DNA from: Chryseobacterium sp. R2A-55
Lineage (GTDB): Bacteria > Bacteroidota > Bacteroidia > Flavobacteriales > Weeksellaceae
Direction of reading: 5' to 3'
Length of the DNA stretch: 64,000 nt
Assembly: GCF_021401085.1 (NCBI RefSeq)
Contig: NZ_JACBFP010000002.1
Span: 248,001-312,000 of the forward strand
The notes below the pieces were generated by a model that worked only from the letters and a program-made list of their open reading frames with translations, was not told the origin of the DNA and ran no database searches. The number at the start of each line of letters is the position of its first letter. Position 1 is the stretch's first letter. Below are positions 46,753 through 48,555 of this stretch, one piece after another. The position numbers and the translations under genes were made by a program.

Positions 46753-46783
46753 TTTGGCAGAAATAAAAAACTTTATATATTTG
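46753..46783 (+). promoter_or_regulatory. Promoter of tRNA-Asn
   Basis: TTTG (46753-46756), a 19-base spacer, then TATATTTG (46776-46783), an exact fit to the Bacteroidetes TTTG/TAnnTTTG promoter. Transcription would begin about 20 bases before the tRNA. Confidence 0.7.
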
Positions 46784-46808: not shown

Positions 46809-46882
46809 TCCTCCTTAGCTCAGTCGGTTAGAGCATCTGACTGTTAATCAGAGGGTCCTTGGTTCGAGCCCAAGAGGAGGAG
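46809..46882 (+). tRNA. tRNA-Asn(GTT)
   Basis: A complete cloverleaf. Acceptor stem TCCTCCT/AGGAGGA; D-arm with AGTCGGTTA loop; anticodon stem TCTGA/TCAGA with loop CTGTTAA (anticodon GTT at 46843-46845); T-arm CTTGG/CCAAG with loop TTCGAGC; discriminator G. The CCA end is not encoded. The 3' end (from 46870) is the first copy of the direct repeat that bounds the GIY-YIG units downstream. Confidence 0.97.
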
Positions 46883-46887
46883 CAAAC

Positions 46888-46916
46888 ACCATCAGAGAAA
46901 TCTGGTGGTTTTTTTT
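46888..46916 (+). terminator. tRNA-Asn terminator, repeated in each unit
   Basis: CCATCAGA pairs with TCTGGTGG (one wobble) around a GAAA tetraloop, then T8. The next base is the ATG of GIY-YIG gene 1. The same element recurs at 47272-47301 (T9), 47657-47685 (T8) and 48041-48070 (T9). Confidence 0.85.
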
Positions 46917-47225
46917 ATGATCTTCTATATTTACATATTGTTTTCAGAATCTTCGGGGATTTATTATGTCGGTTACACCACCGATGTTTCAAGGCGTTTT
47001 CTGCAGCACAACGAATTTTCCGAGACTTCATTTACCTCGAAGCACCGTCCGTGGAAATTAATGGCGGCGTTTGAAGTTCCTGGAAACGAATCAGACGCGA
47101 TGAAGATCGAAAGATTTATCAAGAAGCAGAAATCTTCAAAGTTTATCCGGAAAATCATTGACGCGAATACTGAATTGACCGGAGTCTTGGCTCAGTTGGT
47201 TAGAGTCCCGATTGTTCGGGATTAA
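46917..47225 (+). CDS. GIY-YIG nuclease family protein, unit 1
   Basis: A 102-residue single-domain GIY-YIG protein of the small YhbQ/UPF0213-like class. The core is FYIYILFS (residues 3-10), IYYVGYTTDVSRRFLQHN (15-32, with the catalytic Arg), and the Glu of KIERFIKK (65). The start ATG directly follows the terminator T-tract, so there is no normal ribosome site and expression from the tRNA promoter would need read-through. Residues 90-102 (VLAQLVRVPIVRD) are encoded by tRNA-derived sequence. The domain is intact, with no frameshift. Substrate unknown. Confidence 0.85.
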   Translation: MIFYIYILFSESSGIYYVGYTTDVSRRFLQHNEFSETSFTSKHRPWKLMAAFEVPGNESDAMKIERFIKKQKSSKFIRKIIDANTELTGVLAQLVRVPIVRD

Positions 47226-47268
47226 TCAGAGGGTCTCCCGAAGTTTCGGGACGCCAAGAGGAGGAGCA
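47185..47268 (+). other. tRNA-like element, unit 1
   Basis: Its pieces match the upstream tRNA-Asn: GGTTAGAG (D-arm), TTAATCAGAGGGTC, and the 3' end from CCAAG. A new 7-bp closing stem forms (TCTTGGC 47185-47191 with GCCAAGA 47253-47259). The anticodon and T arms are replaced by two hairpins with the same stem, TCCCGA/TCGGGA (47206-47221 and 47236-47251). No usable anticodon loop remains. The first 41 bases are also coding sequence for the nuclease C-terminus. Confidence 0.65.
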
Positions 47269-47301: not shown

Positions 47302-47610
47302 ATGATCTTCTATATTTACATATTGTTTTCAGAATCTTCGGGGATTTATTATGTCGGTTACACCACTGATGTTTCAAGGCGTTTTCAGCAGCACAACGAA
47401 TTTTCCGAGACTTCATTTACCTCGAAGCACCGCCCGTGGAAATTAATGGCGGCGTTTGAAGTTCCTGGAAACGAATCAGACGCGATGAAGATCGAGAGAT
47501 TTATCAAGAAGCAGAAATCTTCAAAGTTTATCCGGAAAATCATTGAAACGAATACTGAATTGACCGGAGTCTTGGCTAAGTTGGTTAGAGTCCCGATTAT
47601 TCGGGATTAA
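47302..47610 (+). CDS. GIY-YIG nuclease family protein, unit 2
   Basis: A 102-residue copy, intact. Differences from unit 1 include Gln29 for Leu (SRRFQQHN), KIIETN for KIIDAN, LAKLV for LAQLV, and ending IIRD. The catalytic motif YYVG and the Arg and Glu are kept. The nine-base T-tract leaves an open in-frame extension of about 30 codons upstream, through the unit-1 tRNA-like element, but ATG 47302 is the sensible start. Confidence 0.85.
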   Translation: MIFYIYILFSESSGIYYVGYTTDVSRRFQQHNEFSETSFTSKHRPWKLMAAFEVPGNESDAMKIERFIKKQKSSKFIRKIIETNTELTGVLAKLVRVPIIRD

Positions 47611-47653
47611 TCAGAGGGTCTCCCGAAGTTTCGGGACGCCAAGAGGAGGAGCA
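47570..47653 (+). other. tRNA-like element, unit 2
   Basis: Same layout as the unit-1 element, with hairpin loop TTAT instead of TTGT. The D-arm reads GGCTAAG instead of GGCTCAG, which breaks the D-stem. Confidence 0.6.
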
Positions 47654-47685: not shown

Positions 47686-47994
47686 ATGACCTACTATATT
47701 TACATATTGTTTTCAGAATCTTCGGGGATTTATTATATCGGTTACAACACCGATGTTTCAAGGCGTTTTCTGCAGCACAACGAATTTTCCGAGACTTCAT
47801 TTACCTCGAAGCACCGTCCGTGGAAATTAATGGCGGCATTTGAAGTTCTTGGAAACGAATCAGACGCGATGAAGATCGAGAGATTTATCAAGAAGCAGAA
47901 ATCTTCAAAGTTTATCCGGAAAATCATTGACGCGAATACTGAATTGACCGGAGTCTTGGCTCAGTTGGTTAGAGTCCCGATTGTTCGGGATTAA
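47686..47994 (+). CDS. GIY-YIG nuclease family protein, unit 3
   Basis: A 102-residue copy, intact, starting MTYYIYILFS. It carries YYIGYNTDV (closer to the canonical YIG) and EVLGNE, both positions differing from units 1-2. The ending IVRD is as in unit 1. It follows an eight-base T-tract. Confidence 0.85.
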   Translation: MTYYIYILFSESSGIYYIGYNTDVSRRFLQHNEFSETSFTSKHRPWKLMAAFEVLGNESDAMKIERFIKKQKSSKFIRKIIDANTELTGVLAQLVRVPIVRD

Positions 47995-48037
47995 TCAGAG
48001 GGTCTCCCGAAGTTTCGGGACGCCAAGAGGAGGAGCA
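47954..48037 (+). other. tRNA-like element, unit 3
   Basis: Same structure as the unit-1 element, including the TTGT hairpin loop and the 7-bp TCTTGGC/GCCAAGA closing stem. Confidence 0.6.
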
Positions 48038-48070: not shown

Positions 48071-48379
48071 ATGATCTTCTATATTTACATATTGTTTTCA
48101 GAATCTTCGGGGATTTATTATATCGGTTACACCACCGATGTTTCAAGGCGTTTTCTGCAGCACAACGAATTTTCCGAGACTTCATTTACCTCGAAGCACC
48201 GTCCGTGGAAATTAATGGCGGCATTTGAAGTTCTTGGAAACGAATCAGACGCGATGAAGATCGAGAGATTTATCAAGAAGCAGAAATCTTCAAAGTTTAT
48301 CCGGAAAATCATTGACACGAATACTGAATTGACCGGAGTCTTGGCTCAGTTGGTTAGAGTCCCGATTATTCGGGATTAA
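48071..48379 (+). CDS. GIY-YIG nuclease family protein, unit 4
   Basis: A 102-residue copy, intact. It shares YYIG and EVLGNE with unit 3 but the ending IIRD and the nine-base T-tract with unit 2, so it is a mosaic of the other copies. All catalytic positions are kept. Confidence 0.85.
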   Translation: MIFYIYILFSESSGIYYIGYTTDVSRRFLQHNEFSETSFTSKHRPWKLMAAFEVLGNESDAMKIERFIKKQKSSKFIRKIIDTNTELTGVLAQLVRVPIIRD

Positions 48380-48422
48380 TCAGAGGGTCTCCCGAAGTTT
48401 CGGGACGCCAAGAGGAGGAGCA
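48339..48422 (+). other. tRNA-like element, unit 4 (array end)
   Basis: Same layout as the others, with loop TTAT as in unit 2. It ends with the fifth CCAAGAGGAGGAGCA; the sequence after 48422 is unrelated to the other units. Confidence 0.6.
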
Positions 48423-48555
48423 GAAAGAATTACAGAAATATAGTTTTTTTGTTGGCTGCGTCATCAGCGATTTCCGGAATATCGGAAAGTGAAAAGAATT
48501 CAAACTAAGCTTTGTGCGTTACACAAAGTTTTTTAATTTTAGGAAAATTTAATTT

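Follow-up and report, generated by a model that had tools for sequence, protein, structure and literature searches.

Tandem GIY-YIG nuclease genes joined to hairpin-bearing pseudo-tRNA-Asn copies in a Chryseobacterium genome: a possible isotype-specific homing-type element of Bacteroidota

The SegB protein of phage T6 is a GIY-YIG homing endonuclease whose cuts fall within tRNA genes and lead to tandem amplification (PMC13096335). The authors of that study propose that the 5' region of the tRNA gene recombines with the segB 3' region, and evidence cited there indicates that donor alleles are cut inefficiently (PMC13096335). In this study, we analysed a locus with similar features in a 64,000-nucleotide stretch of DNA (the window, C22:248001-312000 of its own genome, G000). 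Like SegB, the locus combines single-domain GIY-YIG ORFs adjoining a tRNA gene, tandem amplification of the tRNA locus, and a nuclease gene whose 3' end is homologous to the tRNA. The tRNA-linked nuclease ORF stands alone, and it is present or absent at an otherwise identical site. No description of a module consisting of a tRNA, a GIY-YIG gene and a hairpin-bearing pseudo-tRNA was found in the open-access literature searched, where absence is no proof; the SegB paper came closest.

The window repeats showed four tandem units of 384 or 385 bp, 3' of an intact tRNA-Asn gene, with the following features:

46776..46783, + strand: -7 element TATATTTG of the Bacteroidota type (TAnnTTTG), 5' of tRNA-Asn (sequence)
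46809..46883, + strand: intact tRNA-Asn(GTT) (ARAGORN; Rfam RF00005, 69 bits)
46884..46916, + strand: terminator hairpin and T-run touching the ATG of ORF 1, with a copy before every unit (sequence, repeats)
46917..47225, + strand: GIY-YIG nuclease ORF 1, 102 aa, final 13 codons tRNA-derived (PF01541, E 1.4e-15; fold model pLDDT 91.6)
47184..47268, + strand: pseudo-tRNA-Asn (Psi) 1 (sequence)
47206..47221, + strand: anticodon-arm hairpin TCCCGATTGTTCGGGA, replacing the 5' strand of the anticodon stem and half of the loop; the part conserved phylum-wide
47236..47251, + strand: second hairpin TCCCGAAGTTTCGGGA, at the T-arm position; in some lineages only
47302..47610, + strand: GIY-YIG ORF 2 (PF01541, E 1.8e-16)
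47569..47653, + strand: pseudo-tRNA-Asn 2, hairpins at 47591-47606 and 47621-47636
47686..47994, + strand: GIY-YIG ORF 3 (PF01541, E 1.7e-14)
47953..48037, + strand: pseudo-tRNA-Asn 3, hairpins at 47975-47990 and 48005-48020
48071..48379, + strand: GIY-YIG ORF 4 (PF01541, E 4.6e-16)
48338..48422, + strand: pseudo-tRNA-Asn 4, hairpins at 48360-48375 and 48390-48405
48423..48452, + strand: degenerate terminator AAGAATTACAGAAATATAGTTTTTTT 3' of the last Psi, unlike the internal terminators (sequence; repeat family D2, 76%)

The gene preceding tRNA-Asn is presumably rseP, a name read from the sequence. TAnnTTTG is the Bacteroidota -7 promoter consensus, and inspection of the 33 nt preceding unit 1 revealed no promoter comparable to TATATTTG for the ORFs. 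Each unit has the same order: a terminator hairpin with a T-run abutting the start codon, the 102-codon GIY-YIG ORF, and Psi. Pairwise, the four units differed at 6-14 of 385 positions, indicating that the array is a recent tandem amplification. ORF codons 90-102 (VLAQLVRVPIVRD) lie inside Psi, encoded by 47184-47222 in unit 1, and the ORF takes its stop codon, TAA, from the anticodon loop of the tRNA. Comparison with the intact gene (46809-46883) identified the tRNA-Asn-derived stretch in Psi as TCTTGGCTCAGTTGGTTAGAG...TTAATCAGAGGGTC...CCAAGAGGAGGAGCA. The tRNA segment CATCTGACTG, which comprises the end of the D-stem, the 5' strand of the anticodon stem and the first loop bases, has become TCCCGATTGTTCGGGA or TCCCGATTATTCGGGA in Psi, and TCCCGAAGTTTCGGGA stands in place of most of the T arm. 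The original prediction, made on this DNA from its letters and open reading frames, was that residues 90-102 of each nuclease are translated from tRNA-derived DNA and that a D-arm remnant is kept; both statements held in all four units. It also described two hairpins with the same TCCCGA/TCGGGA stem, and both are present in every window unit, but the T-arm hairpin was found in only some homologues. The motif TCCCGA-N3-8-TCGGGA occurs 24 times in the genome, compared with 1 copy of the reversed control.

A further proposal was that Psi folds as a pseudo-cloverleaf in which a 7-bp stem, TCTTGGC/GCCAAGA, replaces the lost acceptor pairing. For one unit the pseudo-cloverleaf was the fold of minimum energy, for the other three it was the centroid, and Psi RNA of the window units folded more stably than dinucleotide shuffles (z -3.1 to -3.4). 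The 7-bp stem exists in the four window units but is absent from homologous loci elsewhere: among 38 homologous loci, only the window reached at least 6 of 7 pairs, and the mean of 3.61/7 pairs was close to the 3.54 obtained by random cross-locus pairing, which does not support a replacement of the acceptor stem. We regard the pseudo-cloverleaf of the window, whose 7-bp stem is genome-specific, as a local coincidence. A tRNA mimic recognised by RNase P/Z, also suggested at the outset, is unlikely, because acceptor pairing is lost (mean 2.89/7 in Psi vs 7.00/7 in intact tRNAs), the T arm is intact in a minority of Psi only, and the Rfam tRNA model matched the intact gene alone in the window, scoring no Psi. 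Near-identity between the Psi 3' half and the tRNA was limited to 19 of 50 loci. Exceptions were seen at L148 and L143, where ARAGORN called hairpin-bearing Psi tRNA-Gln and tRNA-Stop; automatic tRNA annotation can be misled by hairpin-bearing pseudo-tRNAs.

The broader idea that structure matters in Psi was borne out by compensatory changes in the anticodon-arm hairpin, which takes the form TCCCGxNNNNyCGGGA where the tRNA has the 5' strand of its anticodon stem. In a set of 34 distinct hairpins, pairing held in 95.0% of cells (84.2% in shuffles), double-sided changes occurred at 5 of 7 hairpin pairs, and 23 cells had changed on both sides against a shuffled mean of 6.7, a count that 0 of 500 shuffles reached. 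The covariation score was 0.283 compared with 0.082 for shuffled data, again with 0 of 500 shuffles as high, and sliding the pairing partners abolished the signal. At pair 6/11, which occurred as C-G, A-T, T-A and G-C, pairing was retained despite changes on both sides in 17 of the 34 sequences. The place of the hairpin, its flanks and its TCCCG/CGGGA ends were common to homologous loci; at L099 the stem is kept with a quite different sequence (TCATGGAATTCCATGA). Since the 7-bp stem has no counterpart and acceptor pairing has disappeared, whereas this hairpin covaries, it is the anticodon-arm hairpin that is constrained. A perfect DNA palindrome acting as a dimer site was disfavoured relative to a hairpin, because the two central positions vary freely and the stem length varies in other lineages; a hairpin with a 2-nt centre may nevertheless serve as a dyad-binding site. 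At three loci (L021 in G144, L017 in G176, and L043), the palindrome TCCCGAA..TTCGGGA also is, or lies within, the terminator after a tRNA or Psi.

To describe the nuclease, we searched domain models, compared homologues and built a fold model. The window ORFs matched PF01541 with 54.3-60.6 bits against a curated cut-off of 22.6 (E 1e-14 to 1e-16), and the array contained GIY-YIG and the related T5orf172 domain, with no other domains. In 49 proteins from across the phylum, the catalytic-type positions Y6, Y17, G19 and R27 were invariant and E65 was conserved in at least 90%; in the tail, R96 was invariant and L94, V95, V97, P98, R101 and D102 were each conserved in at least 90%. These results indicate that the tRNA-encoded tail is conserved as strongly as the catalytic residues. 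In the fold model, which is confident (pLDDT 91.6), the tail formed a helix at 89-93 and a strand at 95-97 with loose final residues. The best structural matches, HIGLE and SLX1, aligned over residues 1-102, and alignments with I-TevI and UvrC stopped at about residue 80; by sequence, the nearest solved relatives were UPF0213 proteins (1zg2, E 6e-9) and SLX1. The tail is a genuine part of the protein. The dN/dS of the core was 0.147 in comparison with C. koreense and 0.085 between two Zeaxanthinibacter, pointing to purifying selection on the nuclease core, an indirect sign of the predicted DNA cleavage by the GIY-YIG protein. In most comparisons, the tail showed less synonymous divergence than the core (pS 0.18-0.41 vs 0.47-1.0 in four of them), so selection, conversion with the tRNA, or both also constrain the tail DNA at the nucleotide level.

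The 85-nt element, used as a query, matched 8 of 197 family genomes in 5 genera. A wider search of public genomes with a nine-sequence nuclease alignment, based on protein patterns only, yielded 80 loci across Bacteroidota, among them Chryseobacterium, Epilithonimonas, Pedobacter, Mucilaginibacter, Algoriphagus, Psychroflexus, Prolixibacter and MAGs of Bacteroidales and Chitinophagaceae. At 65 of the 72 Asn-type loci with enough upstream sequence to be testable, a same-strand tRNA-Asn lay no more than 600 nt upstream, with a median gap of 49 nt. A simple pattern for the Psi layout (GTTAGAG, a 16-nt hairpin, TTAATC) was present at 60 loci, the window counted. The Asn-type module was also observed in a Chlorobiota MAG (L107) and a Thioalkalivibrio MAG (L047), both binned outside Bacteroidota and possibly mis-binned. 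The site formed by rseP, tRNA-Asn and pepT was empty in several close relatives and filled in G105, where a unit with a frameshifted ORF sits between tRNA-Asn and pepT; in element-free relatives, the tRNA-Asn is directly followed by its terminator and pepT. ORF-less Psi copies resembling non-autonomous derivatives also occur. In Chryseobacterium koreense (G172), an additional ORF-less pseudo-tRNA-Asn was seen 5' of an intact tRNA-Asn (L025, ~1500-1580).

Several other origins were considered and rejected. Phage origin or carriage was set aside, as there was only one distant viral contig and phage tblastn matches reached at most 42% identity over the core; close relatives were essentially absent from the viral contigs and phage records searched, and plasmid matches were at 33-39%. 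PADLOC models matched 0 families, speaking against an anti-phage defence protein, and a group I intron endonuclease was disfavoured by the TIGR01453 score (18.6 bits vs a cut-off of 56.05) and by Rfam, which reported no intron family in the array. The Asn-type tree clusters by order (15 changes vs 32.4 in shuffles) with few supported branches, and a single Weeksellaceae clade was not rejected (p-AU 0.61); on tree incongruence, horizontal spread beyond host descent is no more than possible.

We compared Psi with the tRNA of the same locus. The acceptor 8-mer of the local tRNA followed the hairpin at 37 of 50 loci, compared with 0.9% for 8-mers of other species, and at the D-loop T/C site 47 of 50 loci had the same base in Psi and in the local tRNA (Fisher p 7e-10, with related species not independent). 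Together, these agreements indicate that homology to the neighbouring tRNA is maintained to the left and right of the hairpin while the hairpin and ORF persist. The terminator after the intact tRNA was unlike that after Psi at about half of 38 loci. In Leaf404, the terminator on the Psi side equals that of a second tRNA-Asn copy, and the terminator on the tRNA side is fused to the start of the ORF. Both patterns fit an insertion into a tRNA gene that would have displaced the 3' half of the host gene; identical terminators at the other half or so of the loci are explained equally well by local duplication.

Other tRNA isotypes carry paralogous nuclease genes. Of 102 further GIY-YIG matches in the family, 48 were preceded by a tRNA at a distance of up to 400 nt (Arg-TCT 20, Met 15, Asp 7, Ala 2, Val 2, Phe, and Arg-TCG), and at 41 of these 48 a partial copy of the same tRNA lay near the ORF, a few of the copies being complete tRNAs repeated in an array. 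On a tree of 122 nucleases, the tRNA label had to change 26 times vs a shuffled mean of 80.9, indicating that GIY-YIG clades track tRNA isotype; near relatives contribute to this clustering. In every isotype inspected, at loci with an alignable Psi, the hairpin lies where Psi rejoins the 3' part of the tRNA: in the anticodon arm for Asn, Ala, Arg and Val, in the 3' half of the anticodon arm for initiator-type Met and Asp, and in the T-loop for another Met group and Phe. Psi lacks most of its 5' part at the Ala, Met, Asp and Phe loci. As judged from these comparisons, the isotype-specific link, the tracking of the local tRNA by Psi on either side of the hairpin, and the match between the tail and its own tRNA go beyond the original prediction.

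Individual loci added variants. In the window's own genome, several pseudo-tRNA-Ala lie 3' of a tRNA-Ala(GGC), and TCCCGAAAGCCTTCGGGA or a close variant has taken the place of their anticodon arm (L006, C29:22.3-23.1 kb); only one GIY-YIG gene stands among these copies and the remaining copies are ORF-less. In the same genome, a GIY-YIG gene lies ~30 nt after tRNA-Ser(GGA) without a recognisable pseudo-tRNA (L009, C11:577.4 kb). At two Arg-TCG-type loci (L001 and L204), the pseudo-tRNA-Arg after the GIY-YIG gene carries CCTGCCTGCCGGCAGGCAGG, a palindrome inserted into its anticodon arm, and in L204 both sides of the palindrome are otherwise intact. In a tRNA-less sister clade of small GIY-YIG genes from family genomes (L187, L199, L203, L205, L207-L229), dispersed REP-like palindromes flank the genes, often on either side and inverted (for example TGTCACCCTGAGCTTGTCGAAGGG ... 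GGCTTCGACAAGCTCAGCCTGACA; GTCATTGCGAG...GAAGCAATC; TTCTTCACT...TTCAGAATGAC). Strict copies of one such palindrome numbered 0-19 per genome, with 0 for the control. This clade may represent a RAYT-like system that employs a GIY-YIG enzyme.

With chances that we consider evenly balanced, the unit is a selfish, free-standing homing-type element that is specific to one tRNA isotype and has a SegB-like lifestyle, its activity and mobility being predicted from sequence. The analysis establishes the anatomy of the loci, their tRNA linkage, patchiness, selection, isotype specificity, two-sided homology and tandem amplification. We base the proposal on the tRNA linkage, the empty and filled sites, the tracking of the tRNA by Psi, the differing terminators, the isotype clades, the hairpin position, purifying selection, invariant or almost invariant catalytic residues, ORF-less Psi, the tandem array and the SegB precedent; counted against it are the order-wise clustering of the tree, the same terminators at about half of the loci, and a hairpin position that varies with isotype. 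The nuclease would cut the cognate tRNA gene in element-free alleles near the hairpin position, which is the anticodon arm for Asn. Repair from the donor would use the tRNA 5' half as left homology and the tRNA 3' half after the hairpin as right homology. It would copy the ORF in, restore a whole upstream tRNA, and displace the host's terminator and tRNA 3' half to a downstream position, where they would form Psi. The hairpin would ruin the anticodon arm of Psi, leaving Psi neither a tRNA nor a cut site; alternatively, it could itself be the structure recognised by the nuclease. The suggestion that Psi or its hairpin may be the binding or target site of the nuclease fits this explanation. The ORF would be expressed through read-through from the tRNA promoter, and tandem amplification of the locus would be possible because the ORF 3' end doubles as tRNA homology, as for T6 SegB. 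Since the intact tRNA, the presumed target, remains in the element-bearing chromosome, self-cutting must be avoided; inefficient cutting of donor alleles, for which evidence is cited in PMC13096335, would meet this objection.

The main competing explanation, which we consider unlikely, is a mobile system centred on the hairpin, with RAYT/REP-like logic and a GIY-YIG enzyme. The nuclease would cut at the hairpin, its putative substrate as a cruciform or single strand, and would move or maintain the hairpin and its own gene; tRNA genes would be used because tRNA arms are natural inverted repeats. This would agree with the position of the hairpin closely 3' of the GIY-YIG stop in nearly all inspected tRNA-associated loci, the covariation at 7 pairs around a centre of merely 2 nt, the existence of ORF-less Psi, the inverted copies of dispersed REP-like palindromes flanking the tRNA-less sister clade, and the resemblance to UPF0213, HIGLE and SLX1, the last a branched-DNA-specific nuclease. 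However, a search for dispersed copies of the Asn hairpin with its flanks found none, and it was confined to element loci, in 6 of 197 family genomes. The REP-like copies are also few, and nuclease clades that track isotype would be needless for an enzyme acting on the hairpin only.

Quite improbable, in our assessment, is a function at the RNA level, in which the Psi transcript would be a stable RNA or an mRNA 3' end protecting the message, or binding or regulating the nuclease. Compensatory changes in a hairpin that overlaps the stop-codon region, the lower synonymous divergence of the tail, and folding energies below those of shuffles are in its favour, but the acceptor and T arm of Psi are not conserved, the Psi 5' part is mostly missing at Ala, Met, Asp and Phe loci, and gene conversion with the local tRNA likewise reduces synonymous divergence. 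No more probable is a passive by-product, in which downstream GIY-YIG genes would have been caught in tandem tRNA duplications, with the ORF reading into a decayed copy and the palindromes as random insertions. Tandem duplication of tRNA genes is frequent, and roughly half of the loci have a terminator and a tRNA 3' half that are simply duplicated. Hard to reconcile with such an origin are the conservation of the tail (R96 and the six further residues in 49 proteins) and a covarying hairpin with constant place, flanks and ends; the isotype-specific nuclease clades and the helix and strand of the modelled tail also argue against it.

If the homing-type element is real, Bacteroidota tRNA genes harbour a large family of isotype-specific elements that form a chromosomal counterpart of SegB-driven tRNA amplification, and annotated GIY-YIG proteins with C-termini of translated tRNA sequence are explained. 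The hairpin position would then predict the cut site for each isotype, and each nuclease should favour its own tRNA gene. One DNA stretch would also clearly serve simultaneously as protein tail, structured hairpin and recombination homology. A more doubtful, tentative reading is that these tRNA-embedded mobile elements form a class of their own, phylum-wide and previously undescribed. Nuclease clade, isotype and the structurally conserved hairpin would co-evolve, the nuclease would act, in the manner of SLX1, on structured DNA formed by the hairpin or the anticodon arm, and its C-terminus would be encoded by the tRNA-derived recombination end.

Among known systems, SLX1 and HIGLE gave the best whole-chain match to the modelled nuclease, tail included (VIA-align Z 8.0-9.5, 97-99 residues aligned), but they are eukaryotic repair nucleases, SLX1 with its SLX4 partner, with no link to tRNA genes and 18-26% identity to the window nuclease. 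The UPF0213 (YhbQ-like) proteins are the nearest by sequence among solved structures; to our knowledge, they have no tRNA association or pseudo-tRNA tail. RAYT/REP systems likewise consist of a small enzyme gene flanked by conserved hairpins, together with ORF-less hairpin derivatives. RAYTs are Y1 (HUH) enzymes, whereas the window enzyme is a GIY-YIG protein with no Y1 (HUH) transposase domain, and the Asn hairpins are not dispersed. Integrase islands at tRNA attachment sites share the intact tRNA on one side and the duplicated tRNA 3' part on the other, but the unit described here measures ~385 bp, has no recombinase and is marked by a hairpin at its junction. SegB belongs to a phage, whereas these loci lie in bacterial chromosomes, have isotype-specific clades and carry a hairpin-bearing pseudo-tRNA fused to the ORF 3' end; unlike in the SegB case, the tandem units of the window repeat the ORF and Psi with no intact tRNA. 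We place the module with the tRNA-linked free-standing homing endonucleases, and there is a real chance that it is a new class.
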